Assembly (NCBI GenBank): GCA_001600355.1
Contig: BCJU01000001.1
Coordinates: 827,178-891,177, forward strand
Reading direction: 5' to 3'
Length of the DNA: 64,000 nt
Source of the DNA: Meira nashicola
Lineage: Eukaryota; Basidiomycota; Exobasidiomycetes; Exobasidiales; Brachybasidiaceae
Shown here: positions 25,501 to 59,923 of the stretch, piece by piece
Numbering within the stretch: the first letter of the stretch is position 1
How the letters are laid out: every line of letters begins with the position of its first letter
Made by a program: the position numbers and the translations under genes
The notes under the pieces: generated by a model
Database searches by the model: none
What the model saw: the letters and a program-made list of their open reading frames with translations, nothing else
Told to the model about the DNA's origin: nothing

Positions 25501-26966
25501 ACATTGTTCCGATGTCCAATCAAACAAATGCATCACCAACTGCGCCTGTTCAGGGTAGGACTACACCTCCAGCGAGTGACGTTGTCTTCAAGCTTCGATT
25601 GAATAGGAGTAGTGCAGATTTCTTACCCGCAGCAAAGGATGCTTTGGAGGACTTTTTGATCAGCCGTAATATTCAAATTTACCGCGCTGCTGAAAGGAAC
25701 CGAGCCGACTCATTCGCATCAAGTTTTCATCATTTCGCCAATAAGCTCATCTCCGTACCACAAGCTGCCGAATCAACAGACTCGTTTCAGACCGACCCTT
25801 CTGCACGCTACAATCGTCAACAAATGCAAATGCAACAACAACAACAATTACAACAACAAGAAAGCAATCGATTACGTGCCGCTGCTTCTACGCCTGATAT
25901 CAAAGCATTGTTTGATTCACCCAGTATGGCATCTGGTCCTTTTATTCCGCCCAGTGTGCCATTATCCACTTCTGGCGTGATGCCCAAGTCAACAATGTAC
26001 TCGAGCCCATACCAAGATGCATTACGTACTAGCGCTGCTTTCGGTGGTAGCGAGGTATGGGGAGCGCCTACGAATTTGACAGGAAAACCAGCATCGATTC
26101 GAACAAATCAACCGCCAGGACCATCTTCCTTGTCTTCGAATGCTACTTCTCATACCCAACCATCGACACCATCCTCTGCCGGAATCGCTTTTCCACAACA
26201 TGTCACCCGCTTTTCTGATGATGTTGGTGGTATGCAACAACCAAATCAAGCAATGTATGGAGATGCGATGGGCTTTGAAGATAGAGTGAATACATTACGT
26301 AAATCTAGAGCGTATTCTCATCGTGCACAAAGTCTTGACATTGGAGCTCTAGCCGCACAACAAGTGATTCAACAAGCAATGTCGGCAGGTCATCCTAGAG
26401 TAATGACTGGTAGCAGCAGTAGTGGTAGTTTCGGAAGTGCGGCTGAGATGGGTATTCATCCACAAGTTTCAATGGTCAATCAAGCACATGCAAATTCCAT
26501 CAACAATGCTCAACGTCCTTTTGGCGCCATAGGAAGTAAACTGTCAGGACCTAGCGAGATCAATCAATCTCATCACCATCATGTGAGTGGCAGTAATAGC
26601 TTTAGTGGTACACATGGTGTCCCGTTCAATGCGTCCATGCTTGGCGGCGGTGGTGGAATGCAGAACGTTGGCGGAATTCCATCTCATCAGCATTCAGCTC
26701 ATCATTCCTTGCCGCCAACTTACGGCAACGCTCCCGCAAAAGGTCCAGGATATGGTCAATTTTATAGTCCAACGATGAATGTTAACATGCATCAAGGAAA
26801 TCCTAAACAAGTATTCCAACAACAGCAGCAACAACATCATCACTTGCCATCTCCAAGTATTTCACGTTTAGCACCATCTTCTCTGCAACGTGCTCCTGGT
26901 CCAGAGACAGCAGATGAAGTTTTACGCTNGCTTGAACAATTACANTTCCANCCTCCATCCAATTGA
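22503..26966 (+). CDS. Large multi-KH-domain RNA-binding protein
   Basis: A single-exon gene of 1487 aa from ATG 22503; the frame is open upstream only from a TTG. Residues 1 to ~400 are Ser/Ala/Thr-rich, with a poly-Ala tract encoded by GCA repeats near residues 34-45. The centre, about residues 420-1000, carries repeated KH-like units. The clearest GxxG-type loops are VGGRKRCVIQKIQEETG near 527, a RIxGxGGKNIQKTMKK unit near 830 and RTLLGEKGIFIHDIENKLG near 916. KH domains bind single-stranded RNA. The C-terminal third is Gln/His/Ser/Pro-rich and probably disordered. The layout recalls the fungal KH proteins related to yeast YLL032C, which are poorly characterised. Twelve ambiguous bases (N) fall in the gene, nine of them at third codon positions. 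Confidence 0.75.
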   Translation: MEVYSTSFTVPRSSSDAISFAEERPALSSPASLHAAAAAAAAAAATSTSPSSVSTLSEANAVQSTNAIQSRRQDGSTFARFGSMRSRLPPSVKAFMPAAFGGSKRTSDRIAEAVGTGSEKESETEAEGEENVASGTIKEDNKLKETGSSTITGKNLVSLFKDRSNETSNDTSSAGPADGEKQEKDEALIDEGAKDAETVKNDFIKSSPTKNRDSRSTIGTKSSVDLSSNASVDSTAPSTAAAFGSGKTGLTPSESRSATHSASGSLSTFGYQQNPYGAQDLQEAMQKLSSETMNSHQCLINFTPVETETLRTLQSNGSSTSLSSDPFHRNTFPSMPPSASSFASPHLAFPYMSGLESGSAFGASKTGSMPARSPVNIKESQSSKGGKSSSHFNFHLSGGFQQVMAARGQVLREHPFRSRATIKVARNDLLTTNSSSGSINGSIPSENLKPDIRKRFDEIASSCSCMISISANEQQGSDLGNGLETEKNAEIIIAGPFEGVEQAKILVMVMLDELSGLSTEVVEVDYKFHNIVGGRKRCVIQKIQEETGTNIYLATPFPSVLSANRSPSIVSRQNTIFITGEYFGVQRARDMFFQVSMHKSKNVLSRNTAVLPRKIDWLLTDRLEDLRSIMQDNATFIGFPMLGSQASLLTIYGDNRVSIERTIRSVMQLACQFFIASVWLLPISFDGVMAPNTVTTAQLTPILKYVSTNSGAEVAFKNNCFEMHGTESQVRASVSLLLESDLLKTFNLEIRFQIELANEHRDFISGKKNGKINKIMKQGVRIKFETFNDFNFLIDVSSXDRAGTVSGLSLLLEELPAEMSFHIPENYHKRIXGXXGKNIQKTMKKXGVYVXFYSKQDLDIETYPFLDAEDNVIARTPAKNAVNLENLKMAVTELVSPKDXDFVXETVPIARRYHRTLLGEKGIFIHDIENKLGCLIRFPPPESANDLVSIFGPESXIHIAAQMLLDHVPFEAESVEMTRVLESHEFVALVERVKRDLNVNIVPMSNQTNASPTAPVQGRTTPPASDVVFKLRLNRSSADFLPAAKDALEDFLISRNIQIYRAAERNRADSFASSFHHFANKLISVPQAAESTDSFQTDPSARYNRQQMQMQQQQQLQQQESNRLRAAASTPDIKALFDSPSMASGPFIPPSVPLSTSGVMPKSTMYSSPYQDALRTSAAFGGSEVWGAPTNLTGKPASIRTNQPPGPSSLSSNATSHTQPSTPSSAGIAFPQHVTRFSDDVGGMQQPNQAMYGDAMGFEDRVNTLRKSRAYSHRAQSLDIGALAAQQVIQQAMSAGHPRVMTGSSSSGSFGSAAEMGIHPQVSMVNQAHANSINNAQRPFGAIGSKLSGPSEINQSHHHHVSGSNSFSGTHGVPFNASMLGGGGGMQNVGGIPSHQHSAHHSLPPTYGNAPAKGPGYGQFYSPTMNVNMHQGNPKQVFQQQQQQHHHLPSPSISRLAPSSLQRAPGPETADEVLRXLEQLXFXPPSN

Positions 26967-28956
26967 TAGCNGATTGGGTCTTTATTACCTTTTCTTCTGC
27001 GATTGCTTCTTTCGCCTGGCAGGGTGTTTCAAATNAAGAACAAAAGACGGGCATGTCAATACCTTTCATTCGCATACCTATGCATCGCTCGTTTTCTGTT
27101 TGGGAGACACTCTGCCGTTTATCTTTTGCTTTACCTTGCCAATATTCAAATCATTCATCCACACACACAAACACCCACATAACAAGAAGCAGCACCTCCT
27201 ATTACCCGTTTTCTAAGCACATTTTTCAGTCTCTCTCCTTCTGTAGAGGAAGTAGGATTATGTATAAAAGATCTCCATCAAAAGCACTCCATGTTCTTAT
27301 CCATCACAATATATATATACTAAGCAGAAATAATATGGGCTATTATGCCAAATTCAAATCTTTTGCGACAAGTCATAACCAACCCGGAAATCACCGGCTT
27401 GAATTCGGGTTATTAGCAGTGTCCACGTTCACAGTGGGAAGGTACGGGAGTGCGGAGTGCTTGTATATTTTTCCCGCGTCTTTCGCTCGCGTTAAAAGAT
27501 GGTATTTTTTGAAAGCCTTGTTCACGCGTCAGATCCGCTTCGGAGAGTTTTTTTAGTGCCTAAACCGGTTAGAGTTGAAATCAGATGGTTTTCAAACTTT
27601 TGATTTAAAGATTTGAATGACGTTTACTGGTATGCATATTTGTTCCTGAAAGAGATAGATTGATCAATCAGTCTTTGGGTGAAGACGTGATCTGATACGT
27701 ATACATAGATACATAAATAAGTACGTAAAGTTACTTCGGAAAGCTCGGAGGAATGAATGCCCTGAAAATCGCATTGTATGCGCGTATGTAAGTACATACA
27801 AACAATCATGCAATTGCATTGTTTTCATATGCCCGAGACCCTTAAATGGTAGAATGTTGTCGCGGTAAGAAAAGTTTCGTGTGATAAAAAAATGATAAGC
27901 TTACGATAAAGATGAAAGAAGCCTTGTCGATCATTAACGATCAATTTCCCATCATCTTCAATTGCCACCATCATCACTTTACCTATAGAATCGAGATCAT
28001 TGTTGATCACCTTACCACTTTTCATTCTACTTCGACGCATACGCAAATTATGCCATTAACCTCACAATTCAATTTATCGATAATACCAGCTAACTTAAAA
28101 GTTTAGGTAAGTGATCTTGACACTAAAATAGGTCAATATATGCGCTCTTTTTTGATTGTGGTGATCAAGTGGGGCAACAACGATCCGTGCTCTTCATCAA
28201 TACGCTCGCTGTGGATCTTTCTAGTCTTTTTGATCGTCAGAAAATATTGGCACACGTTCCCCCGCTTGAGCAGGGTTCTTTTTTTTCCAATTTATTAGGG
28301 TGCTGCAGAAAGATTGATCGAAAAAAAAATTGTTCTAATCCAAATGAAGCTCCAATCAAGTCATAACATTGTTCTAACACTTTCGCTTTTCTTTTCCTTC
28401 TTAACAGATTATTGATGGTGATCAAATCACGCAACAATAGTACGATACAATCAAATTTCGATTCCGTCATCGCCTGGGAATAATTACCAATTTAAGCTCT
28501 TTTCCAAATCGATCGTACCCTTTTATTGTTACCTACACAGGGGCAGCAAGCGAATTTATTCAATCTGGGTTTTAATCAAAGCGAGCGTTTAAAGCGAAAT
28601 AGAAATTTAACAGTTTAAAAGAGCGCCTTGCCGTTTTGTGTTTGTGCATTACAAGAGGGCGTTGGCATAATCGTAGCGTAGCGCGTTTTCTTGATTTTGG
28701 TTTTTTTGGAGATACGGCATAAAGCGGCGGCGTAGGAATTTTTCAATAAACGAAGCTCTGCCCAGCGCACGCTTTCACAGGAGCCCTACTGCCCGTTCCT
28801 CAGGCGCGTGCATGCATTTGCATACATTCTGTGCATCTCATTTGTAGTTTCAACACAAAAAAAGAAAGGAGAATAAACGAGTGTGCAGCGCCCGTGTATA
28901 TCCTTTTCAGGCAATTTAGGAGAAGAAGTTTCAACTTGTTCTTATCACAAAAAAAA
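26967..28956. other. Long intergenic region, no gene recognised
   Basis: About 2 kb between two same-strand genes. Two ambiguous bases (26971, 27035) lie in the 3' region of the KH gene. The sequence is AT-rich with short TA and T runs. A CCAAT box is at 28287-28291, and a GC-richer stretch (CAGGCGCGTG near 28801) lies about 150 nt before the next start. Open frames here are short, lack family features and change frame often. I looked for tRNA T-loops on both strands and found none. Confidence 0.4.
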
Positions 28957-41303: not shown

Positions 41304-43658
41304 CTACTTCTTTCTTTGTAATCCTAATGCAAGTTCAGCAACACAGATCTGATGACTACCTTTAAGTACAGTGCTTTGAGTACTTGAGCCGTAACTAGCA
41401 AGACCGTCATCTGGAATAACATACATGAGCAATGGCATAGGGTTATTCGAATGATCATGTTGAACTTCTGCTAAGAATTTATAAGTGTGAGCAGGAACTA
41501 CTTGATCATCACCTTCGTATGGCGTCATTAAAATGGCAGGATAATTACCCTTCATTGGAACATTTTGCAATGGTGACCATACACGAATATAATTAAAATC
41601 CACTGGGTTATCCACATCACCAAATTCATAAACTTGTTCAGGTCCACCAGGAGTGCGTTTACGTAAAAAATAATCCAAAACAGGTCTTTCGCCTAAAATT
41701 AAACCGAAAGAAGAAGGAGATTGATTTGCTGCAGCCGTAACAGCAATTGCACCTGCTGTTTCACCTTCTGCAATAATCTTTCCGGGTGAAGTGTATTTTT
41801 GTTTAACTAAATCTTGTGCAACTGCAATTATATCTTCAAATGTTTGTTGTTTATTATGCTTTTGACCTGAAATATGCCATTCTTCACCACGATCATCACC
41901 GCCACGTGCTGATGCAAAAACGAAAAAGCCACCGTAACTGTTTAACCATGAAAATAAGATCGGATCGAAATAATTGTTTTGCGTAATACCATATGCTGCA
42001 AAAGCATGCATCCAAACAGGTGCTTGTCCATTCTTTAGCGTTCCTTTGCGAGAAATTACAAGATAAGGTACTCTTGTTCCGTCTTTACTTATAGCAAATG
42101 CTGTTTCTGTAATGAAATCGTTTGCATTTGTTCCTTTTACATTTGTAGTTATCCAATTCGTTTCAGTATACTTAACTCCGTCTAAAGTGACATCATACAC
42201 TTTATTTGGACAATTTAATGTATTAAAAATCAATTTGAAAGATTTACCTTTGCTTGGTGGAATCATGATAAAGATTGAACCTGGGTGTTCGTTTTCCTCA
42301 ACTTGACGAATAAACTTGCCAGTCTTTAATTCGAATAATTTAGTGTGATAATATCCATCAACCGTATAAATGACGATCAACTTGTCCGAATTAAATGCAG
42401 AAGATAATATAAGTTGAGCATTTTTAACTTCTGGAATGATGGTTGTTAGTGTTAATTTATCTTTTAATTCGTTAAAATCTTTTATTGTCTTTGCTATGCT
42501 CCAATCGAGTTTTGTCTTTGCAATCTTTCCATCCAATGCATTGAGATCCGTTTGAACGTATAAAATATCATCTATAACGTTTAAAGGATCGATAACGTGA
42601 TCATAAGAAGGTGCAATTGAAATCCATTTCATATTTTTGGATAATGTTTGGACGTCTAAACGAGTTGCATATAATCTTGCTTTATTTGTTAAATCATTTG
42701 AGCCATTCAAAATGAACCATTTACCATCATCACTAATCAAAAAAGACCACAAATTATTCGTACCATCAGCCATTTGTTTTTCAGCTTTAGCGATTGTGAT
42801 ATCTTTTTCATACGTTGTTCCTAATTGATGATAACGAACGGAAGATCCGATATCTGTATTATCACCGGAATCACTAGATAAAGTACTCGTATAAAAGAAT
42901 CCTTTACTATCTTGCGTCCAATAAAAGTACCCGTCCACGTTTGGGATCACATCTGGTAAAGTACCCTCACCACCTAAAGGTGAATTTGGACCAGCTTTCA
43001 ATAATGGCTTATCGAATGTACGAACGAACCAAGTAGAAAACTGAGAACTCGAATCCGTAACCATATAAGCAAAGTACTTGCCGTCTAAAGAAGTTTGCCA
43101 CATATTTATACTTGCAGTATTATTTGGACTTAAATAAATTTCATTTAAGAATGGTTTACCGGGTGGAGTGAGAAAGTTATTCTTTTTTGCAAATTCCATT
43201 TCTTCAATTGAAGCAATATACCAAATCGGACGATCTTCGTTTACTCTTTTAAGAGTATAAGTATAAAATGGAACAGGAGCATTTGCAATCAAATCAAACG
43301 TACTGTATTCATCATAATTGAAACCATCTTTGATTGATTGTTCGATAATTTTACGATTTTTGCATTTTGCCATATAACTTTCTGTAAGTTTTGATTGATC
43401 ATCAACGAACTTTTTAACATCAACACTTGTTCCAATTGGACTTTCTAAGTATGTATATGGATCATTAAATGTAACATTGCCTTTTGCGTTTGCAGAACGA
43501 TAAGTACGTGTGAATGGTACTCTTTTAACATTCGGATAAGGATTTTGCTTTGGATTCCAAAATGGAGCGCCAGGAACAGATGCATTCTTGACACCGTTTG
43601 TCAAGATTGCAAAGGTAATAGCAATAGCTGTAAAAGCTTGCAAGAATTGTGATTGCAT
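41304..43658 (-). CDS. S9A copy 1: secreted prolyl-oligopeptidase-like protein, nucleophile Ser replaced
   Basis: A single-exon gene of 784 aa, intact. Residues 1-25 form a signal peptide (MQSQFLQAFTAIAITFAILTNG). The N-terminal block (KGNVTFNDPYTYLES...VKKFVDDQ), a beta-propeller region and a C-terminal alpha/beta-hydrolase domain match family S9A. The canonical nucleophile elbow GGSNGG reads EGETAG here (Thr for Ser, in KIIAEGETAGAIAVTAAANQ). The Asp region is kept as GDDQVVP. At the His loop the sequence is DDGLASYGSS, with no His. By comparison with family motifs from memory, it should not be a normal serine peptidase. Fungal S9A enzymes cleave or macrocyclise proline-containing peptides and are usually cytosolic, so secretion is also unusual. 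It is the last gene in transcription order of a five-copy tandem array. Confidence 0.85.
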   Translation of the reverse strand: MQSQFLQAFTAIAITFAILTNGVKNASVPGAPFWNPKQNPYPNVKRVPFTRTYRSANAKGNVTFNDPYTYLESPIGTSVDVKKFVDDQSKLTESYMAKCKNRKIIEQSIKDGFNYDEYSTFDLIANAPVPFYTYTLKRVNEDRPIWYIASIEEMEFAKKNNFLTPPGKPFLNEIYLSPNNTASINMWQTSLDGKYFAYMVTDSSSQFSTWFVRTFDKPLLKAGPNSPLGGEGTLPDVIPNVDGYFYWTQDSKGFFYTSTLSSDSGDNTDIGSSVRYHQLGTTYEKDITIAKAEKQMADGTNNLWSFLISDDGKWFILNGSNDLTNKARLYATRLDVQTLSKNMKWISIAPSYDHVIDPLNVIDDILYVQTDLNALDGKIAKTKLDWSIAKTIKDFNELKDKLTLTTIIPEVKNAQLILSSAFNSDKLIVIYTVDGYYHTKLFELKTGKFIRQVEENEHPGSIFIMIPPSKGKSFKLIFNTLNCPNKVYDVTLDGVKYTETNWITTNVKGTNANDFITETAFAISKDGTRVPYLVISRKGTLKNGQAPVWMHAFAAYGITQNNYFDPILFSWLNSYGGFFVFASARGGDDRGEEWHISGQKHNKQQTFEDIIAVAQDLVKQKYTSPGKIIAEGETAGAIAVTAAANQSPSSFGLILGERPVLDYFLRKRTPGGPEQVYEFGDVDNPVDFNYIRVWSPLQNVPMKGNYPAILMTPYEGDDQVVPAHTYKFLAEVQHDHSNNPMPLLMYVIPDDGLASYGSSTQSTVLKGSHQICVAELALGLQRKK

Positions 43659-44800
43659 GCTAAAAGAAGGATGTCAAATAGAAAGGATGATTTGTGTTAG
43701 AGTAATAGAGAGAAGTAGATTATTTAAAATTAGTTCCATTCAACATTTTATTATTTTGAGTTCATCAAACACTTGCCATTACAATCTTCTGCCATTTTAC
43801 GTTTCTTATGAAATATTCTCTATCCGTGCTTAATATTGCGCCTGCCAAGATCATAACGTCGTGTTCGAAACAGAAACATTTTTCCGCAAATATTGAATAA
43901 CCGCTTCACCGCTTGCGGTTGACCGCTTCTTCAGGTACACAAATAACGTATACAAAGAGCGGACGCAGTATTATCAAACAACGCTCAGCTCAGTTCATGT
44001 CACGTTGATCATCTTAAACAATTAATCGAACACGAAGAAAAGGGAAAGTTAAATCAAATTGAAAAATCGGTATGAAATAAAAAGGAATAATATAGGAATA
44101 ACGAAGAATAACGATCATTTTCTACGTTCTAAACCCAAAGAAGTTAATATCAAGTAAAAATGGCATTTGCTGAGCTCTTACGCTATCAACAACAAATAAT
44201 AACAAAATTCTTGAAGATTTTAGCCCTCAAGATTTTTTACATACTGAGCCTATAATATTACGCCTTCGAATTAAAATCCAGTTCATATCCTTCTTCTTAC
44301 AGAATGATCTTCACCGTTTTCCTTCACGGCGCCGTATTTAACGTAAATCAATAATCACGAAAGCCTAGCCCAGTGCCAGAGTTTACTAATTTGATTTAAA
44401 ACTTAATTTCGGCTTCTTACATACGCCACACAAGTGTTTTAGTATATCTTGTCTCGAGTCAAATGAATTTTTAACGCGGGTTCTTAACAGTAAATAGCGG
44501 AGAAGAAAATATAAATATAGATTCATTTCATTCTTGTTAAAATCATAAAATGAATAGAAGGATTTTCTTCGTTGGAAGTGATTTTTGTTTTAGATCGTTG
44601 GACGTATGACCTACGGAAGTAAAAAAAAAGCATAAATTATCATTCTGCCAAGACTTTAGACCTAATATTTAAAGCTATCACAAAATACTCTTACAGGGAG
44701 AATCACTCAATCATTTAACTTTCAGACAGCTTGACCGAAATAATTGATTCATAATCGAGGAAGTATCAGAACTTAGTACTAGGCAACAACAGTGGAAGTC
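43659..44800. other. Long spacer between S9A copies 1 and 2
   Basis: About 1.1 kb, AT-rich. It holds the upstream region of copy 1 and the downstream region of copy 2. I see no gene, no remnant of another S9A copy and no RNA gene. Confidence 0.4.
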
Positions 44801-47125
44801 CTAATGATTAACGCGTTGTAAGCCCAAAACATGAGTAGCAAAAGCGATTGAATATACTTCTTCATTGACGTAATTGTCTTCTTCTGTTAATTTTAGATCA
44901 GAAGTACTATAGAGCAAAGGAGAAGGATTGTTTGGTAAATCATGTTGAAGTTCAGCAACCATTTTTCTAGCTTGCCATTGTTGATTGATATCACCTCCAG
45001 GTAAAAATAAAATTGCTGGATATTGTTTTGAAGCATTGACGTTATGTAAAGGTGAGATTTTACGTAACCAATCAAAATCTTTTGGCTTTTGAGGATCACC
45101 ATATTCTTCAGTTTCAGCAGTTGTATCAGCAGATGAATCTGGAAATCGTAATAAATCAAACATTCCATCTTGTAAGATCACAACGCCAAGGTTTCCTTCT
45201 GGTGCTTGATTTGTAACTGACATTGCGGTTGTAGAAGCTGCATATTGTCCATAAATAATCACTTTTCCCTTTGATGTGATTTTATTGTCGATCAAATATT
45301 GGATAACTGCTTGAACATCATCGATTGTATTTTGTTTTTTATCGAGCATACCGGCTTTATGCCATTGTTCTGCTCGTACTTCACCTCCACCACGAGGATA
45401 AATTGCAACAAATACTGCATCATAATCATGAACGAAAGACATGTAGGTTGGATTATAGTATGGTAATCGAATCACCCGATAAGCGCCATAATAGTTCAAC
45501 ATCAATGGTCGTGAGCCATCAAACACCAAACCCGTTCGATAGAATAAATGAAAGGGAACTTTTGTTGAATCTTTAGATGTAGCCCATCGTTTTTCAACAG
45601 TGAACTTAGTTGCATCAATAGATTCTAATTTTGCTTGATATGCAAGCTCAGTCGTTGCAGAACTTTTATCTTTATTCCATTTAATGTAATATAGTTGACC
45701 TGGTGTATTATAAGACCAAGACCAGAGAAAGATATCTGTTCCTGTTTGAAGAGATGCGAGTGAGCTTGAACTTCCGATCAACTCCGGCAAGATTTGTTGA
45801 ACACGTTTTCCGGTTTGCAATTCATAAACAAAGCATTTACGATCTGCGTCTTGAGTATAGCATAGAAGCATTTTGTCATAATCAAATATCGTATAGATAT
45901 CAATCAGTGCATTCTTATCTTCCGGAATTACTGTTGGCTCTAGTTGAGCTTTATCTTTCAAATCGGTCAATTGATTCACTTGACGTGCTTTTGAGAAGTC
46001 TAATTTGTATTTGATAACTTGATTGCTTTCATTGTCATACCGAGCAAGGAAGTAATATTCATTTCCAACGTTTGCCAAAAATTCAAGTTCGAGATCGAAA
46101 CCTGGTGAAATAGAGATCCATTTCTTTGGTGCAGAGAGTGGTTCATCTAAAGTTGTTGCAAATACTCTCGGCTTTGCAGAATCGGTATATTGAAAAACGA
46201 TTAAGTTCTTCCTATCAGTTGAGAGGTGGTAGCCGTACAATATGTCTTCATCCGTTCCAACACTTGATTTGACAAAAACGATGTCATCTTTAACTTTACT
46301 TCCTACGTAATGATACATGAGGCTAGATTGATTGAAAGAGCCATCATCGTTTAAAAGCTCATGCACGTAGAAGAACCCTTTGCTATCAGCAGTCCATCCT
46401 TCCGAGTCATCTTGAGCTCCAGTGATTTGTTCTGGATATGGCTTTGCATCTTTACCTTCATATACGCCAGAGATATCTAAAAGGTGAATTGTTGTTAGAT
46501 TATTTGTACTTTTCTTTTGAACACGATACAGTAGAGTTTTTCCATCAGGGGAAATGCTTTGATCGTAAATGTTATAGTCATTATCTAATGATGCTTCATC
46601 AAATACTTTTCTGCCGGGTAAAGGTGAAAATTTGTTCTTGACTGCTTGATCGATCTCTGCTTGTGTTGCAACATAGAGTGCACGAAAGTCGCTGTTTATT
46701 TCTCGACGTACGTAAAGATAGAAAGATGCATTTTTACTGCCATATGCAACAGGATAACCAAGTTCATCATAATGTCCAGCATCTTTCATTGACGCACGAA
46801 TTGCATCTGCATCTTTACACTTTTGCAAGTAATTCTTGAAGAATGCGTTTTGTTGGTCGTCAAATGTTTGAACTTCTTTTGATGAATCGGATGATTGTTC
46901 AAGATAGTTGTATGGATCGGCAATTGTCACATTTCCATTCGCAGCTGCTGATTGATAAGAAAAGCTCACATCATCACGACGTGCAGAAGGATACGGCGTT
47001 GACTTTGGATTCCAATCTGGTGCCGAAGCTCGAGGAAAGAGTGATGGTCTGTTACGGTATGACAACGCTTGAATGGAAGTGAAAAGCAGAAAAGTTGAAA
47101 GAAGTGAAGTGAAGGGGAGAAGCAT
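44801..47125 (-). CDS. S9A copy 2: secreted prolyl-oligopeptidase-like protein, catalytic residues lost
   Basis: A single-exon gene of 774 aa, intact. The signal peptide is MLLPFTSLLSTFLLFTSIQALS, followed by an S9A start (WNPKSTPYPSARR...NGNVTIADPYNYLEQS). The hydrolase domain is recognisable (DAVFVAIYPRGGGEVRAEQWHKAGMLDKKQNTIDDV, and DFDWLRKISPLHNVN). At the nucleophile elbow the sequence is IYGQYAAS, giving Tyr where Ser is expected. The Asp region is GGDINQQWQ and the His loop STSDLKLTEEDN has no His. It is predicted to be a secreted pseudopeptidase. A TATA box on the minus strand (TATAAAA, complement of 47199-47205) lies ~75 nt upstream of the ATG. It is closer to copies 3 and 4 than to copy 1. 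Confidence 0.85.
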   Translation of the reverse strand: MLLPFTSLLSTFLLFTSIQALSYRNRPSLFPRASAPDWNPKSTPYPSARRDDVSFSYQSAAANGNVTIADPYNYLEQSSDSSKEVQTFDDQQNAFFKNYLQKCKDADAIRASMKDAGHYDELGYPVAYGSKNASFYLYVRREINSDFRALYVATQAEIDQAVKNKFSPLPGRKVFDEASLDNDYNIYDQSISPDGKTLLYRVQKKSTNNLTTIHLLDISGVYEGKDAKPYPEQITGAQDDSEGWTADSKGFFYVHELLNDDGSFNQSSLMYHYVGSKVKDDIVFVKSSVGTDEDILYGYHLSTDRKNLIVFQYTDSAKPRVFATTLDEPLSAPKKWISISPGFDLELEFLANVGNEYYFLARYDNESNQVIKYKLDFSKARQVNQLTDLKDKAQLEPTVIPEDKNALIDIYTIFDYDKMLLCYTQDADRKCFVYELQTGKRVQQILPELIGSSSSLASLQTGTDIFLWSWSYNTPGQLYYIKWNKDKSSATTELAYQAKLESIDATKFTVEKRWATSKDSTKVPFHLFYRTGLVFDGSRPLMLNYYGAYRVIRLPYYNPTYMSFVHDYDAVFVAIYPRGGGEVRAEQWHKAGMLDKKQNTIDDVQAVIQYLIDNKITSKGKVIIYGQYAASTTAMSVTNQAPEGNLGVVILQDGMFDLLRFPDSSADTTAETEEYGDPQKPKDFDWLRKISPLHNVNASKQYPAILFLPGGDINQQWQARKMVAELQHDLPNNPSPLLYSTSDLKLTEEDNYVNEEVYSIAFATHVLGLQRVNH

Positions 47126-47518
47126 GATGTATGCTGCTTTAAAGGTGGATGAAGTTATGGAAGAAAGGATTGAGAGGAAGAAATTCTTAAAGTCTTCATT
47201 TTATATGTTAATTCCAAAGACGTGTTCGGAAACTGATTTTCCGCGGCTTTTCCCCTTTTCGGATCGATAGAATCATCCACGGCCAAGGCACGAAAAAAGA
47301 TTAATTTGCTCGGCTTCATAATCATTTTCGGACCGTAATATGGAATTTGAGTTGCTTACAGTCTTCCAAAAACGGAAGTGTGCATGTGTATGATGTATAA
47401 TGCGTTTGTATTCCGCTTTTTCCGGAAGCGCTGAATTGAAATTAATTATTTAATTATATAGGAACGGAATGAATATGAATTGAAATGAATTTACAAAAGG
47501 GGATGAAGTATGTCTTCA
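47126..47518. other. Spacer between S9A copies 2 and 3
   Basis: Contains the copy 2 promoter, with a TATA complement at 47199-47205 and TTCCG-rich sequence, followed by an AT-rich 3' region of copy 3. No gene seen. Confidence 0.4.
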
Positions 47519-49819
47519 TCATTTACGTGATACATTTAGGACGTAAGCGGCAAGAGCGATAATATAAGCTGATTGCTCTTTTGCGTTCTCATCGTCTGAT
47601 AATGTAGGATCAGGTAAACTAAAGAATAATGGTGAAGGGTTGTTCGGTAAATCGTGTTGAAGTTCAGCAATCATTTTTCTTGCTTGCCATTGTTCGTCAG
47701 GATCACTGTCAGGTAAAAATAAAATTGCAGGATATTTTTTTGAAGCATTTACGTTGTGTAAAGATGAAATTTTACGTAACCAATCAAAATCTTTTGGTTT
47801 TTGTGGATCACCATATTCTGTAACGTATTCTTGTGATCCTGGTGAAGTGGAAAATCGTAACAAATCATACATTCCATCTTTTAAGATCACTAAACCAAGA
47901 TTTCCTTCTGCAGCTTGATTTGTAACTGCCATTGCGGTTGTAGAAGCTGCATTTTGTACATAAATAACTACTTTTCCTTTTGCAGCAATTTTGTTATCGA
48001 TAAGATATTGAATGACAGCGTTAATATCATCAATTGCGTTTTGCTTTTTATCTAGCATACCAGCTTGATGCCATTCTTCCGCTTTTACTTCGCCTCCTCC
48101 CCGTGGATAAGTAAGAACAAAGACAGCATCATAATCATTCACCCAAGTCATAAAAGTTGGTTTATAAGATGGTAACCAAACAACACGAAAAGCACCAAAG
48201 AAGTTAATCATTGCAGGTTTTGTACCATCAAATACAGTACCCTTCTTATAGAATAAATGAAAGGGAACCTTTGTTGAATCTTTTGAAACGGCGTATTTTA
48301 GTTCGATGTTAAATTGAGAAGGATCAATGGTTTTAAGTTTTGCTTGATAAACAAGGTCGCCCGTTGCTAAACCTTGATCAGAATTCCATTTTATATGAAA
48401 TATTTCACCTGGACAATTAAATGTCCATGACCAAATGAATATATCCGTTCCAGTTGATAAAGAAGTTGAAGAACTTGCACTTCCAACAAAGTCAGGTAAA
48501 ACATGTTGAATACGTTTACCCGTAATAAGATCATAAATATAAAAGTTCATCTTTGCATCTTGTGCATAAGAAAGAAGTACTTTGCCTGTATCAAAGACTG
48601 TGAATTGATCAATCAATGCAGTCTTATCCTCTGGGATTACTGTTGGTTCCATTACCGCTTTATCTGATAAATCTTTTAAATTATTTACTTGACGGGCTTT
48701 TGTAGGATCCACCGTATACTTTACGACTTGATTGCTTTCATTATCATAACTTGCAAGGAAATAGAATTCATTTCCAAAATTTGTTACATAATTCAAACTT
48801 AGCTCTTCATCGGGTACGATTGATAACCATTTCATATTTGATGAAATTGGTTGATCTAATGATGCGGTATAAATTCTTGGTTTAGTAGTATCGCCATATA
48901 TATAAACAATAACGAACTTCCTATCATTTGAGACTTCAAAGTACTTTGATTGATTTGGATCATTATCTGATTTAACCGCAATAATATCATCTTGTACCGA
49001 TGTACCTAACTTATGATATTTAAGAGTATCTGTACCATCATAGAAGTTAGCATCGTTATGCATATAAAAGAATCCAACACTATCCGAAGTCCAACCATCA
49101 TATGCATCCGCATTGCCTGAAATCACTTCAGGATTATCCTTTAAACTTGAAATATCACGAAGATAAAGCTTGAAAAGGTCATCGCTACCCTTTTTCCTTA
49201 CACGATATAAGAATGTTTTGCCATCAGGAGAGAGGTTTTGAAAATTTGAATATTCACCTTTATCTAAAATAGCATCATCAAATACTTTTTTACCGGGTAA
49301 TAGTGAGAAGTTATTCTTGTATGCTTGTTCAAGATCAGCTTAAGTTGCAACATAAAAGACACGATTATCACTTCCAAGTTATCTGTGATAATAAGTGTAC
49401 ATAGGATTCTCTTTACTTCCAAATGCATTCGGAAATTGAAGTTCTTCATAATGATTTGCATCGTTTAAGGATGTTTGAATTACATTCAAGTCTTTAAAGT
49501 TCTTTTTCGCATAAGTTTTAAAGAATGTATTTTATTGATCATCAAATATTTCAACTTCTTTTGATGATAAAGCCGATTGTTCGAGGTAATTATAGGGATC
49601 AGCCACTATCACATTACCATTCGCGGCTACAGAACGATAAGAAAAGGTTGTATCACCACGACGAGCAGAAGGATAAGGTGTTGATTTTGGATCCCAAGTT
49701 GAAGAATCTCGCAGGAATAGCGTTGGAGTGTTATGGTTAGGCACTGCTTGGATGAAAGCAAGGTGCGAAATTAAAACAGTCACTAAAGCTGATAAGAACA
49801 AAATCAATGATTGAAGCAT
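47519..49819 (-). pseudogene. S9A copy 3: full-length frame with three in-frame TAA stops
   Basis: The frame runs 767 codons with no frameshift or intron but has TAA at 49532-49534, 49379-49381 and 49340-49342. The ATG and signal peptide (MLQSLILFLSALVTVLISHLAFIQA) are intact, and the frame downstream of the last stop is open for 600 codons to its terminator. By alignment with sister copies, the stops replace Gln, Glu or Gln, and Gln. The elbow reads IYVQNAAS (Asn at the Ser position). The Asp region is DPDEQWQ and the His is missing. A minus-strand TATATAAAA (complement of 49875-49883) lies ~55 nt upstream. It is best read as a young pseudogene of an already non-catalytic protein. Confidence 0.8.
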
Positions 49820-50147
49820 GTTGTTGTGTGAGGATGGTGGCAGAAGAGAACAAAAGAGTTATGAATTCGAATCATTTTATATATCAACCATTACGGCAAC
49901 AGATTATCCGTTACTTTCGTAATTCTTACTCTATAAGATCACAAAAGAAAAGACGGCAGAGTATACACTCCTTGAACGGCGCCGAATCTTGGCCGGAAGG
50001 GTAAATATTGAAAATCAACTTAAAACACTTCTTTTTCTTCCCGGTTCCTTACGTATCACATTTGCCTTTGCAAATTATAGCGGTTCCGATACTGACTGAA
50101 GAAAACAATAATGAACATGTTTATGAAGAAATCTTTATCTGATTTTA
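49820..50147. promoter_or_regulatory. Promoter of S9A copy 3
   Basis: The TATA complement is at 49875-49883. CTATAAGATCACAAA at 49931-49945 is identical to a 15-mer upstream of copy 4 (52577-52591), so the promoters are duplicated along with the genes. Confidence 0.5.
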
Positions 50148-52445
50148 CTAAGTAACACGTTTCAAGTCAAGTACATGAGAAGCAAAAGCGATGGTAAGTG
50201 TTGTTACACTATGAATATCTTCAACCTTTGCTGTTGCCTGACCTGGAGGATTAAATAAAAAAGGATTCGGATTATTTAGTAAATTATATTGAAGTTCTGC
50301 AACCATTTTTCTACCATGCCAATTGAATGTACTATCATTTCCTGGTAAAAATAAAATTGCAGGATATGTTTTAGTTTTATCAACGTTGTGTAATGGTGAA
50401 ATTTTACGTAACCAATCAAATGCTTTTGGGTCTTGTGGATCACCATATTCTGCAACATCATAAGAAGATCCAGGTAAAGTTGAAAATCGTAATAAGTCAT
50501 ATTCACCATAAACACTATATAATCCATCTTGTAAAATTACTGCACCAATGTTACCCTCTGGAGCTTGATTTGCTACTGCCATTGCAGATGTTGAGCTGGC
50601 AAATTGACCATAAACTACAACTTTACCTTTTGCAGCAATTTTGTTATCGATAAGATTTTGAATGACAGCGTTGACGTCATCAAAAGTGTTTTGTTTATTA
50701 GCAAGCATACCTGCTTGATGCCATTGTTCTGCTCTTACTTCACCTCCTCCACGTGGATAAGTAAGTACAAAGACTGCATCATAATCATTCACCCAGCTCA
50801 TATATTGTGCAGAATAAGCAGGAAGCCAAATTGTTCTGAATGCACCAAAGAAGTTTATCATTGCAGGTCTTGTACCATCAAAAACCATACCTTTTTTATA
50901 AAATAAATGAAAAGGTACTTTTGTTGAATCTTTAGAGGTAGCATATCGCTTTTCAACTATAAATTGTGAAGGTTCGATTGATTGTAATTTTGCTTCAAAC
51001 ACTAAATTTGCAGTAGATTTACCTTGTTCTTTGTCCCATTTAATGTGATATAATTGTTCTGGAGCGTTGAAATTCCAAGACCATAAAAATATATCCGTTC
51101 CTGTCGGTAAGGAAATGATTGAACTTGAAGCGCCTTTATAATCCGGTAAAACATGTTCAATACGTTCTCCTGATCGTAAATTATAAACGTAAAAGTGTCT
51201 TTCTGCATCTTCTGTATAACAAAGAAATATCTTATCTGTATCAAAAGTAGTAAATCGATCGATCAAAGCAGATTTATCTTCAGGTATCACTGTTGGCTCT
51301 ACGTTGATTTTCTCTTTTAATTCGCTTAAATCATTAACTTGACGTGCTTTTGTAGGATCGATATTGAATTTGACTACTTGATTACTATGATCATCATATC
51401 TTGCAACAAAATAAAATATATTTTCCAAGTTTTGTATGTAGTCTAACTCTAAATCATCTTTAGGAGCGATTGAGAGCCACTTCATTTTTGTCGAGATTGT
51501 TTGATTTAACGGTGCAAGATAAACTCGAGATTTGTCAGATCCAAAAAATTGATACACAATTATAAAATTTTTATCGTTTGTAACATCGAATGCAATCGTT
51601 GCAGATGGATCACTATCAGCTTTAACGATTAAAATATCATCTTGAGGTTTAGTTCCAAGTTTGTGATATAAGATACTACTTTGAATATTTGTGCCATCGG
51701 ATAAATCTTGCATATAAAAGAAACCATTACTATCTTTTGTCCAACCGTCGTTTAAATCTGAATTTCCAGTGATAACATCCGGTAAATCTGAACCGCTAGC
51801 GATATCACGAATATAAATCGTGCCAAGATCAGGAGAATCTTTTTTCGTAATACGATATAAAAGTTTCTTTCCATCAGGAGATATTTTTTGAAAATAGATT
51901 CTTTCACCTGCTCCTAAAGATGATTCTTGGAGTACTTTCTTGCCTGGAATCGGATTAAATTTTATCTTGAATGCTTGATCAAGTTCAGCTTGAGTAGCAA
52001 CATAAAAATCACGACTATCACTTCCTAATTCTCTATGATAAAATGTATATAACGGATTTTCTGCGTTACCAAATGCTTCTGGAAATTAAAGTTCGTCATA
52101 ATGATCTGCTTCTTTGATTGATGCGCGGATTGAATCTAAATCTTTGAAATTGTTTTTGGTATACGTTTTAAAAAAGGCAGTTTGTTGATCGATAAAAGTT
52201 TGTACATCTTTTGATGATGAAGATTGAAGATAATTATACGGATCAGCAATTATCACATTTCCATTTGCTGCAGCAGCCCGATAAGAGAATGTTGTACTAT
52301 CACGACGTGCAGGAGGGAAAGGAGCTGATTTTGAATCCCAGCCTGAATCACGAGGATGAATTGTTCTACCATCTTGAAATGGCACAGCTTGAACAGTGTA
52401 TAAGCCAAGCACAGCCACAATTGTTGACAAAAAGGATAAAAGCAT
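50148..52445 (-). pseudogene. S9A copy 4: full-length frame with one in-frame TAA stop
   Basis: The frame runs 766 codons without frameshift or intron, interrupted once by TAA at 52086-52088. Copy 3 has CAA (Gln) at the same place (EEL-Q-FPNAFG). The signal peptide is MLLSFLSTIVAVLGLYTVQA. The hydrolase domain is recognisable, but the elbow reads VYGQFASS (Phe at the Ser position), the Asp region is GNDSTFNWHG, and no His is seen in the last loop (FNPPGQATAKVEDIHS has a His only further on). A TATA box is not obvious: TTTAAAAG lies where copy 3 has TATATAAAA. A single nonsense codon could also be bypassed by readthrough or be strain-specific. Confidence 0.8.
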
Positions 52446-52866
52446 GATTGATGTATTCTGATGGATGGTGAGGAATGAAATTAAAGAAGTCTGCTTTTAA
52501 ATCTTTTCAATCAAGCATGAGTACCTTATCGGAAACTTCTCTTCCGTTCCACGGCTCCACTTTAATAACTTAAAAGCTATAAGATCACAAACGGATCCTT
52601 CCATGCACATTAAGTACGCCATTCTTTCCTCAATTTCCGTGTTAAGCGAAATAGTAAGATTCCGAATGGCGAGAAAGTGGAATTAATGGAACAAATAAAA
52701 ATGATGACTCATTAGGTAAACACGATCAAATTGAGGAACATACATCATCACATCATGCAACTTTATTAAAAAAAGCCACAAAAAACACCATCAAATAAAA
52801 AAATTATGGCGGATTGACAGAAATATAAACATTAAAAGAGGAACTAATTTAGTCGTATGACCCCGG
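52446..52866. promoter_or_regulatory. Promoter of S9A copy 4 and 3' region of copy 5
   Basis: Carries the 15-mer CTATAAGATCACAAA at 52577-52591, shared with the copy 3 promoter, and TTCCG-type repeats. No gene seen. Confidence 0.45.
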
Positions 52867-55394
52867 CTAAGCACTTCTTCTTTTGATTCCCAAAGCTTCC
52901 TCCAATATACAGAATTGATAAGTCAATTCCAAAATTGTTGCATCCAAGTGAGAATCGGTAGGAACGAGATACAACAATAAAGGAAATTTGTTATTCGGAT
53001 GAGTGTACTGTAATTCAGATATAAACTTGAAACTGCTGGAAGGAGGTACTTGTTCATCCAAAGATCTTGACGTTAATAAGATAGCAGGATATTGCTTCTT
53101 GGGATTAACATTTTGTAATGGTGACCATGCTCTAACAGCATCAAATCCTTCAGGTGTTGTCACATCACCAAATTCAGCAACATTTCCTTGTCCTATCGAA
53201 GTTCGAAGTTCTAATTGAAAAACATCACAAATCGCTTCTACCATAAATGCAGCACCGATTAATCCTTCTGGAGCTTGATTGATTACTGCTCCAACTGCCA
53301 TTCCACCTACTGAAATACCTTCTAAAATAAGATTTCCTGGTGAAGTGATTTTCTTCTTGACTAAATCTTCTAAAATCGCAAGTGTATCATCAAATGTTTT
53401 CTGTTTTTTCAATCCTTGTGCTGCTTCATGCCAATCACCACCTTCATCACCGCCTCCCCTGTATAATGAATATGATATCAGTTCTAGATATCTATTGATC
53501 ATCAACCACTTCAACTCATCTTACTCCGCCCCAAACCATATATCCATCATAACTCCGAATAAAATCAAAATAGTCAGGTCTATAATAGAGATTATAAATA
53601 TCTCCGTAACTGCCATAAATGTTGACCAGAGTTGGATTTTTCCCAGTCTTTTTGATGTTTTTCCGATAAGTTAAAAAGTAAGGAACTTTTGTACCATCTT
53701 TTGATGTTGCATAAAATTCTTCAATTGCGAAATCATTTGCATTTATACCATTTATTTCTCCTATAAAAACGCTTGAAGTTTCAATTTGACCATTTTCCCA
53801 TTCAAACTCAAATATTTTACTTGGTGAATTCCAACTAAAGAATGACATGATGAGAATGTTGCTGTTCTGATCATTTCGAATATCAAAAAATGCGAGTTGT
53901 TCTGTTATAAAAGAATAAGCATTGTGTTATATAATATCTCTAAATTGTCTTTATTCACTTTTCACTCACCGTTCGGAAGTAATCGTTGAATAACTTTGCC
54001 AGTTTTAAGGTCATACAAGTATACCGTATTTTGACCATTTTCCACATAAGTCACAACACCTTTATCTCCATCTGTGATTCGAAATCCGTCATAATTGATT
54101 AGAGCATCTTTACGTTCAGCAATCACGTCTATAACTTCAGGTCGATCTTGTAATTGTGTAAAATTTTGAACTGTACGAGCTTTACTCCAATCAAGTTTAA
54201 TTTTTGCAATCTTTTTATTTTTTGAATCTTTGTTGGTTAAGAAGTAATATTCATCTTTTATAATTCCGCCAGGTAACATTGAAAAGTTATATGAAGGTGC
54301 CAAAGTGATCCATTTCATATTATTTGAAATCTTTTGTCCTTGAAGCAAAGTTGCATACGTCATCACATCATAATCAGCGTCTACAAAGAGAGAGATGATG
54401 AGCCAGCGACCATCTCTGATTAGGATATAGAAATTGTCAATGATAATGAAGTCATTGTTTTATAACTTAATTTCACTTACGGGCTTATATACGTAAAAAA
54501 ATACGAATATTCTCCAAGATCACCTGCTCGTTTTGAATCAAAAATGATTATGTCTTTTGATTGATCGGTTCCTAAAACATGATATCGAATTTTATAGCCT
54601 TGGATAGGATTTGTGCCTTCTTGTGATTCTACACTTTTAGGCGAAAATATTCCTTTGCTATCAGCCGTCCAAGAAATTTGATCTGCAGTTGAAGGGAGCA
54701 TATCTTTTAATCTGCCTTCACCTCCCTCTGGAAACGTTTTAGCATGTACTAATGGTGTATTAAAATAACGAAAGTACCATGTTCCTAATTCACTTGCTCC
54801 GACTACTAAATAACAAAAAATCTTTCCATCTGGTGAACTGTTGACGTATAAAATATTTGCACTTCCATCTGAGCTTAAAAGTGTTTCATTAAGTAACACC
54901 TTTCCTGGAGGTGTTTTGAAATTTACCTTTTTTGCTGCTTGAAATTCTTCGATCGAAGCAGTATACCAAACTGTACTTCCTGTTCCAGCACGAACGAGAC
55001 TATAAAGATAGAAAGGCTTTCCTCCTGTGTTTGAAGAAATATACTTTACGTATAAATATTTATCGTAATTGTTTGCTTCAGTAAGTGCTTGAATTGTAGC
55101 ATTCTTTCCTTTACAACCTTGAAAATAACTTTCAGTTGTCTTTGTTTGATCACTTATAAATTATTGAATCTCTTTTTCCTTTACTGATCCTTCAAGCCAA
55201 TAATATGGATCGGCGTACGTAACGTTGCCTTTTGCTTTAGCTGATTTATAAGACCATGTCTTGTTTACCCTACGGACTTTAGGATATTCAAGCTTAGAAG
55301 TAGAAGGATTTTTGTGATCGTTGCCATGACTGGGTAACACCACCAAAGCAACCAATGCAATAGCAAAGGCGAATACGTTAACGAAACAATGCAT
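52867..55394 (-). pseudogene. S9A copy 5: intron-containing, triad residues kept, but broken
   Basis: Exons on the minus strand are 55394-54481, 54415-53970, 53901-53520 and 53458-52867. Introns 1 and 2 (54480-54416, 65 nt; 53969-53902, 68 nt) have GTAAGT/GTGAGT donors and CAG acceptors. Intron 3 (53519-53459) restores the family sequence GGVRGGGDEGG only if spliced after AG at 53520, where the donor reads ATGAGT instead of GTGAGT. A TAA also interrupts exon 1 at 55161-55163. The signal peptide is present (MHCFVNVFAFAIALVALVVLPSHG). Unlike the other four copies, it keeps Ser in the elbow (EGISVGG), Asp in LDEQVPP and a His in PTDSHLDA. A minus-strand TATATAAAT (complement near 55456-55464) lies ~65 nt upstream. 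Probably a recently lost active enzyme gene. Confidence 0.75.
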
Positions 55395-57823: not shown

Positions 57824-59923
57824 CTAAATCGGTAAAATGGTAGGAATGGTTTCCGAATTGCCAAAAATTTCATCGAGATCATCATCCCATGCGTCCAACG
57901 CTTTTTGTAATTCGTTAGAGTTGATTTCACGTAAGGTTGATAGGATACTAGGGTCTTTTTCCATTTGTACATCAAGCGGTGTGATTGGAGTTGAAATCGA
58001 AGAAGAAAAAGTAGTCGTCATGTGAGTGGTATCAGATTCATTATCGATTGTTGTAGAATTGAGACATTTCGGACCAATGATGGAAAATTGCAATTGCGAA
58101 AGATCCACCAACTCTTTCGAATTGAGAATTTCTGATGCTATTTCTTCGCCCTGTTGCACCACTTTCGACTTCATCAAAAAGGAATGAAGTAATTGGCATA
58201 CTTCTTTCACACCCCGACTTACACGTTGTAGCTCACTCCTTCTCGTCATCAATACTAGCGTGTTTCGACCTTGACAAATGGCATGAAAACAATTGACCAA
58301 ATGATTATAATCATCCACTTTTAGCCATTGCATAGGCATTCCAACATCTTGCATAGGTACGAACCAAGGCTCGATTGCTTTAATCAGATCTATCAATTGA
58401 TCATGCATAAACTTTGGCGTGAAAATCCAACTACAACGGCAAGTAGCCACCCAAGAAGCACAATTCTTTCTTCCTTCTTCCAATAGATCTATTTTGGCTA
58501 TATTTCTTCTCTTTTCCAACATCCAATTGATTGTTTGTTGTGAAATAGAATATTGATCTTTGAAAACCTTATTTGCATAGAGTTCACATACTTTTGTCCT
58601 GAATCCTGTTCGAATATGCTGAAGTGTGATTTGCAACATTGCACTTTGTCCACCGCGAAAGTACTTTCTCACGTTGAGATCGGCAATCTCTTCTCCAAGT
58701 TCAAAATGTTCTTTATCAAAATCGGAAACGAGATAACGAGCAACGTCAGTACTTTCATATGTGATCTTTTGAGACATACTGGCCAGCAAATCGTAATAGC
58801 GACCAATCAAAATCCCAATCTTAGCCTGCATAAAAGCAAACTTGCTCAAGACAGGAAGGTGTACCTGTGTTTTTGTGGTACACATACATGTGTTTGCAGT
58901 ATTTGAGTCTGATAATAGACTATTCAAAGAAATATGACTTTGATCCTCCCCACGTAGACAGATACGATAATCTTCTGCTTTGAATCTCGCTGGACTTCCA
59001 CTGTACCATGATCTGACACGTTCTTTTTCGAAAAAACTCCAAAATATTCGATAAATGAGAAGATCTCTCTCTTGTTCCATAATCGTATCATTACGAACGC
59101 CTCGTCTTTGAACGAAAGGTTCACGATGCATACCTGCTTTCTCTAATCCTTCGATTGCAATTATGACACTGCTATCCAAGAAACCTATTGTCCCCGAATT
59201 CTTTTGAAATACGTGTATCATCATAAAAGCAGCAAAATGTTCTGGAGGCCATTCGTTTGTACTTTGAAACCATTCAGGATATGAAAAGATCTCTACTGTG
59301 AGTCTGAATGCTTCTTGGGCCAAAATATCGGCAGTGTATAAGCTGTTGTCCTTCGAATACTCCATTAAGATCACTTCCACTTCGGTAGGAACCATTTGTG
59401 CAGTAATTGCGATGACGATGTATGCTAATGGTTCTAATGCGTCCCATAGAATTGGCGACACTTCCCTGCTTGGTTGACATGGATGCGTTGCAATCGTTCG
59501 ATCCATACGTGTATCTTTTAGAAGATCTCCTATCCAATCTACAAGATTAATATAAAGCGAAAATATTCGCAAGAGGAAGAAAGGTGCTTCGATCAACTGA
59601 TTAAAATGTGAACTCCCACCCTTTTGCCATCTTTTTGGAATTTGTTTAGTCAACGCTGTTGCGATGAATGCATCTACGTCAATATCAGCTACAGAAAGAG
59701 CTTTGTTGTTGTAGTGCTCAGAAGTTTCTCTTGTATTCGCGCATTGACGTTCTTTCGTAACATTTGCTTTCTTGAAGGAGCATTCAGCATTGTCCTTAAC
59801 GCATCTTCCACATGGCTCTTCGCGATCACACTTTCGTTTATGAATCCTACATCGATCGCATGATAATTGTGATCGCTTTCTGACTTGTTTCACTGAAGCA
59901 GATTTATCTTTTTGCCGAACCAT
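57824..59923 (-). CDS. Zn2Cys6 transcription factor
   Basis: A single-exon gene of 699 aa. The binuclear zinc cluster is at residues 22-48: C22-X2-C25-X6-C32-X5-C38-X2-C41-X6-C48, within LSCDRCRIHKRKCDREEPCGRC. A basic stretch (KQVRKRSQ) precedes it. The middle resembles the fungal-specific regulatory domain, with helical repeats such as FAAFMMIHVFQKNSGTIGFLDSSVIIAIEGLEKAGMHREPF and ERDLLIYRIFWSFFEKERVRSWYSGSPARF. The C-terminus is acidic (WDDDLDEIFGNSE), as in activation regions. Target genes are unknown. It is divergent from the aldo-keto reductase with 388 bp between starts, so local control of that gene is possible but not shown. Confidence 0.9.
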   Translation of the reverse strand: MVRQKDKSASVKQVRKRSQLSCDRCRIHKRKCDREEPCGRCVKDNAECSFKKANVTKERQCANTRETSEHYNNKALSVADIDVDAFIATALTKQIPKRWQKGGSSHFNQLIEAPFFLLRIFSLYINLVDWIGDLLKDTRMDRTIATHPCQPSREVSPILWDALEPLAYIVIAITAQMVPTEVEVILMEYSKDNSLYTADILAQEAFRLTVEIFSYPEWFQSTNEWPPEHFAAFMMIHVFQKNSGTIGFLDSSVIIAIEGLEKAGMHREPFVQRRGVRNDTIMEQERDLLIYRIFWSFFEKERVRSWYSGSPARFKAEDYRICLRGEDQSHISLNSLLSDSNTANTCMCTTKTQVHLPVLSKFAFMQAKIGILIGRYYDLLASMSQKITYESTDVARYLVSDFDKEHFELGEEIADLNVRKYFRGGQSAMLQITLQHIRTGFRTKVCELYANKVFKDQYSISQQTINWMLEKRRNIAKIDLLEEGRKNCASWVATCRCSWIFTPKFMHDQLIDLIKAIEPWFVPMQDVGMPMQWLKVDDYNHLVNCFHAICQGRNTLVLMTRRSELQRVSRGVKEVCQLLHSFLMKSKVVQQGEEIASEILNSKELVDLSQLQFSIIGPKCLNSTTIDNESDTTHMTTTFSSSISTPITPLDVQMEKDPSILSTLREINSNELQKALDAWDDDLDEIFGNSETIPTILPI

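Follow-up and report, generated by a model that had tools for sequence, protein, structure and literature searches.

A window of 64,000 nucleotides from the basidiomycete Meira nashicola (BCJU01000001.1, positions 827,178 to 891,177 of the forward strand), which sits on the contig labelled C1 here in a genome of 17.9 Mb, carries five S9A prolyl-oligopeptidase (POP) genes arranged head to tail on the minus strand at 41304-55394. An earlier note on this DNA had described them as five same-strand S9A-like genes, each with a signal peptide, in which the fifth copy alone keeps the catalytic Ser and the other four also have no recognisable His. Open frames and Pfam domains bear out the five genes, which are the following:

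41304-43658, minus strand: copy 1 (locus L023), an intact, secreted-type open frame of 784 amino acids with Thr at the position of the catalytic Ser, the Asp kept and Leu at the His position.
44801-47125, minus strand: copy 2 (L009), an intact, secreted-type open frame of 774 amino acids with Tyr at the Ser position, a shortened Asp loop and the His loop lost.
47519-49819, minus strand: copy 3 (L010), of the copy 2 clade, with Asn at the Ser position, the His loop lost and three in-frame TAA codons in the N-terminal part.
50148-52445, minus strand: copy 4 (L011), of the clade of copies 2 and 3, with Phe at the Ser position, the His loop lost and one in-frame TAA.
52867-55394, minus strand: copy 5 (L037 plus fragments), a degenerate pseudogene with an in-frame TAA and frame shifts, in which the Ser, Asp and His motifs are kept.

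Copies 1 and 2 alone are intact, in line with what the earlier note had implied, and both are triad-less; copy 5, which has the triad motifs, is the most decayed. Copies 1 and 2 have both domains of S9A descent, the Peptidase_S9_N propeller and the Peptidase_S9 hydrolase, as do the open C-terminal pieces of copies 3 and 4; Peptidase_S9 was also found in the last piece of copy 5 (the piece of that copy tested), with Pfam scores so far above the cut-off that the assignment is not due to chance. Copy 2 is matched collinearly from end to end by copies 3 and 4 (60% and 56% identity), and copy 5 matches the loci L022 and L028 in pieces of changing frame and belongs to another sub-lineage than copies 1-4. 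As copy 1, copies 2-4 and copy 5 represent three sub-lineages, the array is not a simple five-fold amplification, and tandem amplification of a single gene is ruled out.

The predicted structures of copies 1 and 2 are confident (mean pLDDT 89.3 and 89.7, the latter with a pTM of 0.90) and display the full two-domain POP fold. The fold is shared with known S9A enzymes (porcine POP, 1qfm, and the macrocyclases OphP and GmPOPB) over the whole mature protein, with structural alignments at about 23-28% identity; the differences are that copies 1-4 lack the Ser and the His, that the Trp of the S1 pocket is absent, and that the N-terminus is of the secreted type. POPs are normally cytosolic. Signal-peptide-like N-termini, as claimed earlier, are seen in all five copies, in copies 1-4 by a hydropathy window and in copy 5 (start at 55394) by eye, and the C-termini of copies 1 and 2 do not carry HDEL or KDEL.

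The S9A proteins of the genome and their relatives were aligned on L019, the canonical POP of this genome, which has the motifs GGSNGG, ADHDDR and AGHG, an N-terminus that is not hydrophobic, and a match to porcine POP of 492 bits versus 201 for copy 1 and 182 for copy 2. In this alignment the elbow strings given in the earlier note hold for all five copies: the Ser position reads T, Y, N, F and S in copies 1-5, and of the five only copy 5 has the His. With the porcine residue numbers that we take to apply (554/641/680 for the triad, and Trp595 and Phe476), the triad positions read T/D/L in copy 1, Y/-/-, N/-/- and F/-/- in copies 2-4, and S/D/H in the broken copy 5. The His loop of copies 2-4 is truly shortened; their Asp loop is also shortened, with an Asp one residue early that is invariant in the nine sequences of their clade and may or may not correspond to the catalytic Asp, since it shifts by a column with the placing of gaps, on which the dashes at 641 also depend. 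A misassigned triad is ruled out, as the alignments give no alternative conserved His: the only His invariant past the elbow in 13 rows of alignment A2 belongs to the general SPLHN motif. Copies 1-4 thus lack the Ser-Asp-His triad of an active S9A peptidase and are non-peptidase homologues by homology and missing residues, and copies 1 and 2, with neither a Ser nucleophile nor a His in the alignment, cannot act as ordinary serine peptidases.

The S1 proline pocket is not preserved either, the Trp595 position of copies 1-4 reading Q, E, Y and D and the Phe476 position Y, Y, F and F. No secreted-group member readable at this position has the S1 Trp595, not even the triad-keepers (Q or N in those), so that proline specificity was probably lost ahead of catalysis. 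Trp595 is not a strict marker of activity, because the other-sample proteins P0010 and P0011 keep the triad without it. The triad-keeping secreted loci L017, L022 and L024-L030, which have Q or N at Trp595 and A or G instead of Asn after the nucleophile, are probably peptidases of altered specificity (L028 and L030 being interrupted).

The array is part of a larger family. One protein search gave 35 S9A matches in the genome, a lower bound, which were grouped by eye into 28 loci and one short fragment, and which comprise the canonical POP without signal peptide, a distant second POP and a secreted radiation. Of the 28 loci, all but L032 are readable at the Ser position, and 16 of these 27 keep the Ser; the His is kept in 13, absent from 13 (L009-L016, L018, L020, L023, L031, L035) and unread in L021, the frame of which ends early. 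The Ser is also lost in 11 of the 13 loci without His. All 13 loci with Ser and His have the Asp as well, and 11 of them are secreted-type or fall in the secreted group, with Trp595 lost. The proposal that the family has become a set of secreted pseudopeptidases is therefore only partly supported: copies 1 and 2 are secreted-type, intact and triad-less, their relatives in other species share the defect and the dead forms have dN/dS values (ratios of non-synonymous to synonymous substitution) well below 1, but the triad is whole in 13 of the 27 loci that could be read, and copies 3-5 are broken genes and not functional pseudopeptidases. Judged by these residues, the family is a mix of triad-keeping and dead secreted POP-fold proteins and not wholly dead.

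In nine of the 28 loci the reading frame is split or contains stops (L010, L011, L012, L028, L030, L032, L033/L036, L031/L034 and L037). The uninterrupted secreted-type copies comprise seven with the triad (L017, L022, L024-L027, L029) and eight without it (L009, L013-L016, L018, L020, L023), and some of the two kinds are neighbours within the clusters on C1 and C2. By hydropathy, every locus with a readable start has a hydrophobic N-terminus except L019 and L038, a Met downstream of the first one having been taken as start in L013, L014, L016, L028 and L029. The second cluster (C2:3.25-3.29 Mb) holds L012-L016, the canonical L019 and the triad-keeping L024. Members of the L012-L016 clade have a Lys-Arg pair shortly past the hydrophobic stretch, which would presumably fit Kex2 processing.

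A tree of 42 rows was calculated under a single-matrix model with the columns around the three catalytic residues removed, leaving out eight rows (L032, L033, L034, L036, the copy 5 piece L037, P0021, P0022 and P0011). The secreted group comprises 35 rows with support of 100/100, and the best tree needs at least five changes between triad-keeping and triad-less states, L021 not being counted and P0006, which ends before the His, being counted as triad-less inside clade A without effect on the number. The five groups are clades A and B together (15 rows, 100/100), the copy 1 clade, L018/L031, L020 and L035, where clade A consists of copies 2-4 and P0002-P0007 and clade B of L012-L016 and P0008; L035 and L031 fill only 42% of the tree columns. 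The backbone joining clades A and B, L018/L031 and L020 is weak (64/53 to 87/97), and there were possibly fewer events among these three. The copy 1 clade has the triad-keeping P0020 as sister (100/100) and L035, a half-length frame, has L024 (100/100), so that both stand apart from the rest and at least three losses remain. The changes are read as losses because the outgroup keeps the triad.

The defect is shared with other samples. Ten relatives were read, six from Meira miltonrushii (P0003, P0006, P0007, P0008, P0017, P0019) and four other-sample proteins (P0002, P0004, P0005, P0018). The His is lacking in nine of them, the tenth (P0006) being partial and ending before it; the Ser is lacking in eight and present in P0006 and P0008; and eight are 758-787 amino acids long, the shorter ones being P0006 (710) and P0007 (505). 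Among named relatives, M. miltonrushii proteins match copies 1 and 2 best. Copy 1 is 76% identical to P0017, in which the Ser is replaced by Ala and the His by Leu, and its nearest relatives have Ala at the Ser position; P0002 and P0007, nearest to copy 2, are likewise triad-less. Among further relatives, P0022 has Ala at the Ser position and ends before the His, P0020 keeps the triad, and P0021 keeps the Ser and ends early. The records of P0002, P0005, P0020 and P0021 all give 57,932 bases as the length of the longest contig, and one 4.54-Mb contig is listed for five Meira proteins, which suggests that the array is linked in these relatives too.

Above 30% identity the matches were Meira proteins, other-sample proteins, the window's own proteins and one fern-labelled record, although absence outside Meira-like fungi is not proven by this, as the protein searches scored roughly the 8000 best word-sharing candidates. 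A third protein search (profile A2) added a single match, P0043, which is weak and bacterial. The fern-labelled record, P0023 (Adiantum nelumboides), is identical over 775 of 775 residues to the protein of L027:1381-3705 (C2:2676807-2678927), and it probably contains DNA of this fungus.

Selection was gauged by NG86 dN/dS for 20 pairs within the genome (14 dead-dead, 4 triad-triad and 2 mixed), values that describe mostly the history before breakage since several of the rows are broken. The ratio is 0.19-0.31 in 13 of the 14 dead-dead pairs: 0.236-0.256 in clade A (n = 3), 0.193-0.260 in clade B (n = 8), 0.200 for L018-L031 and 0.306 for L018-L034, the deep A-B pair L009-L013 having 0.401. Triad-triad pairs (four, one member being broken) gave 0.260-0.357 and the mixed pairs 0.193 and 0.224. 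In all seven pairs subjected to 100 codon bootstraps each, the upper bound stayed below 0.43. The least saturated dead pairs by dS are L018-L031 (0.52), L018-L034 (0.64) and L012-L015 (0.69).

Averaged over the pairs of 13 sequences of clades A and B, identity is 0.36 at the elbow, 0.37 in the Asp loop and 0.17 in the His loop, versus 0.59 in the remaining hydrolase domain and 0.43 in the propeller; among 11 triad-keeping sequences the corresponding values are 0.51, 0.47, 0.27, 0.45 and 0.36. In a sliding-window control the elbow falls at the 14th percentile in the dead set versus the 73rd in the triad-keeping set, the His region at 0 versus 10 (low in both) and the oxyanion Tyr473 at 59 versus 38, and in the copy 1 clade (4 sequences) the percentiles are 15 for Ser, 92 for Asp, 6 for His and 6 for Tyr473. 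On these alignments the release of constraint in the dead clades is local to the active site.

The reading that we favour, and consider probable on the present evidence, is that selection has kept copies 1 and 2 as secreted POP-fold proteins without catalysis, which most likely serve as extracellular binders. A secreted S9A radiation, seen so far only in Meira-like fungi, would have lost the triad repeatedly, giving rise to proteins such as copies 1 and 2 with a complete two-domain fold, a secreted-type N-terminus and the catalytic Ser and His gone, and the dead forms would then have been held under purifying selection, as tree, relatives and paralogue dN/dS suggest. The propeller and alpha-beta shell could capture a peptide or partner protein uncut, sequestering it or shielding active relatives, and copies 3-5 would be casualties of the same birth-and-death process. 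More tentatively, the whole Meira-like repertoire may go back to a once-cytosolic peptidase that was exported, lost its proline specificity, spread to more than 20 loci and lost the triad several times in independent events, its dead members serving as extracellular traps for peptides or partners with the nucleophile elbow as variable site; this we regard as possible rather than probable. Several observations weigh against binders kept by selection. Copy 1 and clades A and B no longer have Trp595 and Arg643, two classical substrate-site residues, which makes ordinary prolyl-peptide binding unlikely; L014, L015, P0006 and P0008 retain Ser at the nucleophile position; dN/dS averages the history of paralogues and includes broken copies, most pairs being near saturation (dead-dead dS 0.52-1.53); low conservation of the Ser region fits plain relaxation as well; and with at least nine of 28 loci broken, a part of the dead copies may just be in the course of being lost.

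Another reading is relic decay, in which a once-useful secreted peptidase family is disappearing and copies 1 and 2 are simply not yet interrupted. Copies 3, 4 and 5 and the six other interrupted loci fit such decay, and lone in-frame stops within otherwise open frames look recent, but triad loss is common to relatives elsewhere at 37-76% identity, eight of ten of which have 758-787 amino acids, the dead pairs do not exceed the triad-keeping pairs in dN/dS, and the hydrolase domain beyond the active site is still conserved, so that we consider relic decay unlikely. It is very improbable that these proteins are still enzymes with a rebuilt active site or a non-hydrolytic activity. A Ser three residues past the old nucleophile in eight of nine clade A sequences, the Asp surviving in copy 1 and in five of six clade B sequences, and the Thr at the Ser position of copy 1 could be read in that sense, yet no conserved replacement His accompanies them, the nucleophile position varies in triad-less members (Y, N, F, L, H, S, E, G, T or A), and the relatives closest to copy 1 have Ala there. 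Finally, dead members might be partners rather than independent binders, which associate with secreted relatives that keep the triad or stabilise or shield them, for instance by acting as decoys for an inhibitor. Although POPs are mostly described as monomers, uninterrupted copies with and without the triad are about equal in number (7 versus 8) and partly clustered together, and there is a described precedent in PsXLP1, which shields PsXEG1 (PMC8960721); we see this as somewhat unlikely compared with the binders that we favour.

Some further observations concern the interruptions and the surroundings of these genes. In L010, L011, L012, L028 and L030 all seven in-frame stops are TAA in otherwise open copies, and L032 and L033 have TGA or TAG. 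Repeat-induced point mutation was rejected as the source of the stops in the window array: its dinucleotide signal was not seen there, as the two indices are 0.72 and 1.35 (0.62-0.74 and 1.30-1.46 for single copies), close to the 0.63 and 1.36 of window positions 1-41000 and judged by cut-offs that we presume to be the customary ones. A further triad-less tandem pair, L018 and L031/L034 (C4:511292-516181), has Glu at the Ser and Lys at the His position, its second gene being split over two frames. Inside the second POP cluster, five open reading frames (C2:3252758-3253435, 3254192-3254773, 3270644-3271372, 3271792-3272619 and 3272640-3273443) lack Pfam matches and have N-terminal stretches that look hydrophobic by eye; they look like a cluster of secreted orphan proteins. 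Elsewhere in the window, 14 single N bases are scattered over 24898-27035, and Pfam assigned a further gene, of a kind in keeping with a fungus:

57824-59923: Zn(II)2Cys6 transcription factor, assigned by Pfam, outside the array.

Proteins of this kind have parallels in other families. DPP6 and DPP10 are inactive S9B proteins that serve as membrane-anchored ion-channel subunits, and have in common with the copies described here the S9-clan fold, a dead active site and a non-catalytic role. The inactivated protease paralogues of the scabies mite form a large secreted family of another protease fold. They are likewise paralogues with catalysis lost, from an animal parasite, and are reported to inhibit complement in vitro (PMC5553898). 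Ecm14, described as a conserved and secreted fungal M14 pseudopeptidase of no detectable activity (PMC7706225), is also a peptidase homologue without catalysis that is conserved by descent, but it belongs to the metallocarboxypeptidases and is a single gene in S. cerevisiae, whereas the array is multigene. The same logic of binding without cutting is met in a basidiomycete with MpChi of Moniliophthora, an inactive secreted chitinase that sequesters chitin (PMC8960721); MpChi is a glycoside hydrolase with a known ligand and a tested function, whereas for the POP-like proteins a binding role is only proposed. A survey of 42 fungal genomes reports no DPP6/DPP10 homologues and describes the serine proline-specific peptidase homologues as keeping the triad (PMC8469457), and a survey of fungal serine proteases set aside "likely inactive homologs" and reports S9 to be commoner in plant-associated fungi (PMC5567314). 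No published account of a secreted POP-fold family with triad loss was found in the literature searched, most subscription journals being outside its scope, and on basidiomycete pseudoproteases it yielded only the Ecm14 paper. Secreted pseudoenzymes as such are known, but as far as this literature shows, none has been described as a family with the POP fold that lost its triad repeatedly within a single fungal lineage.

Meira species are described as plant-associated, two having been isolated from mite cadavers and three proposed against mites and powdery mildew (PMC8880017), so that the dead proteins may possibly have a target in any of plant, mites or competing microbes. The triad-keeping and dead sisters (the copy 1 clade and P0020, L035 and L024) offer a natural replicate experiment on what the fold does minus catalysis. 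Most of the Meira relatives are publicly annotated as prolyl oligopeptidase or prolyl endopeptidase though the triad is gone, so that counts of fungal S9 "proteases" can be wrong.

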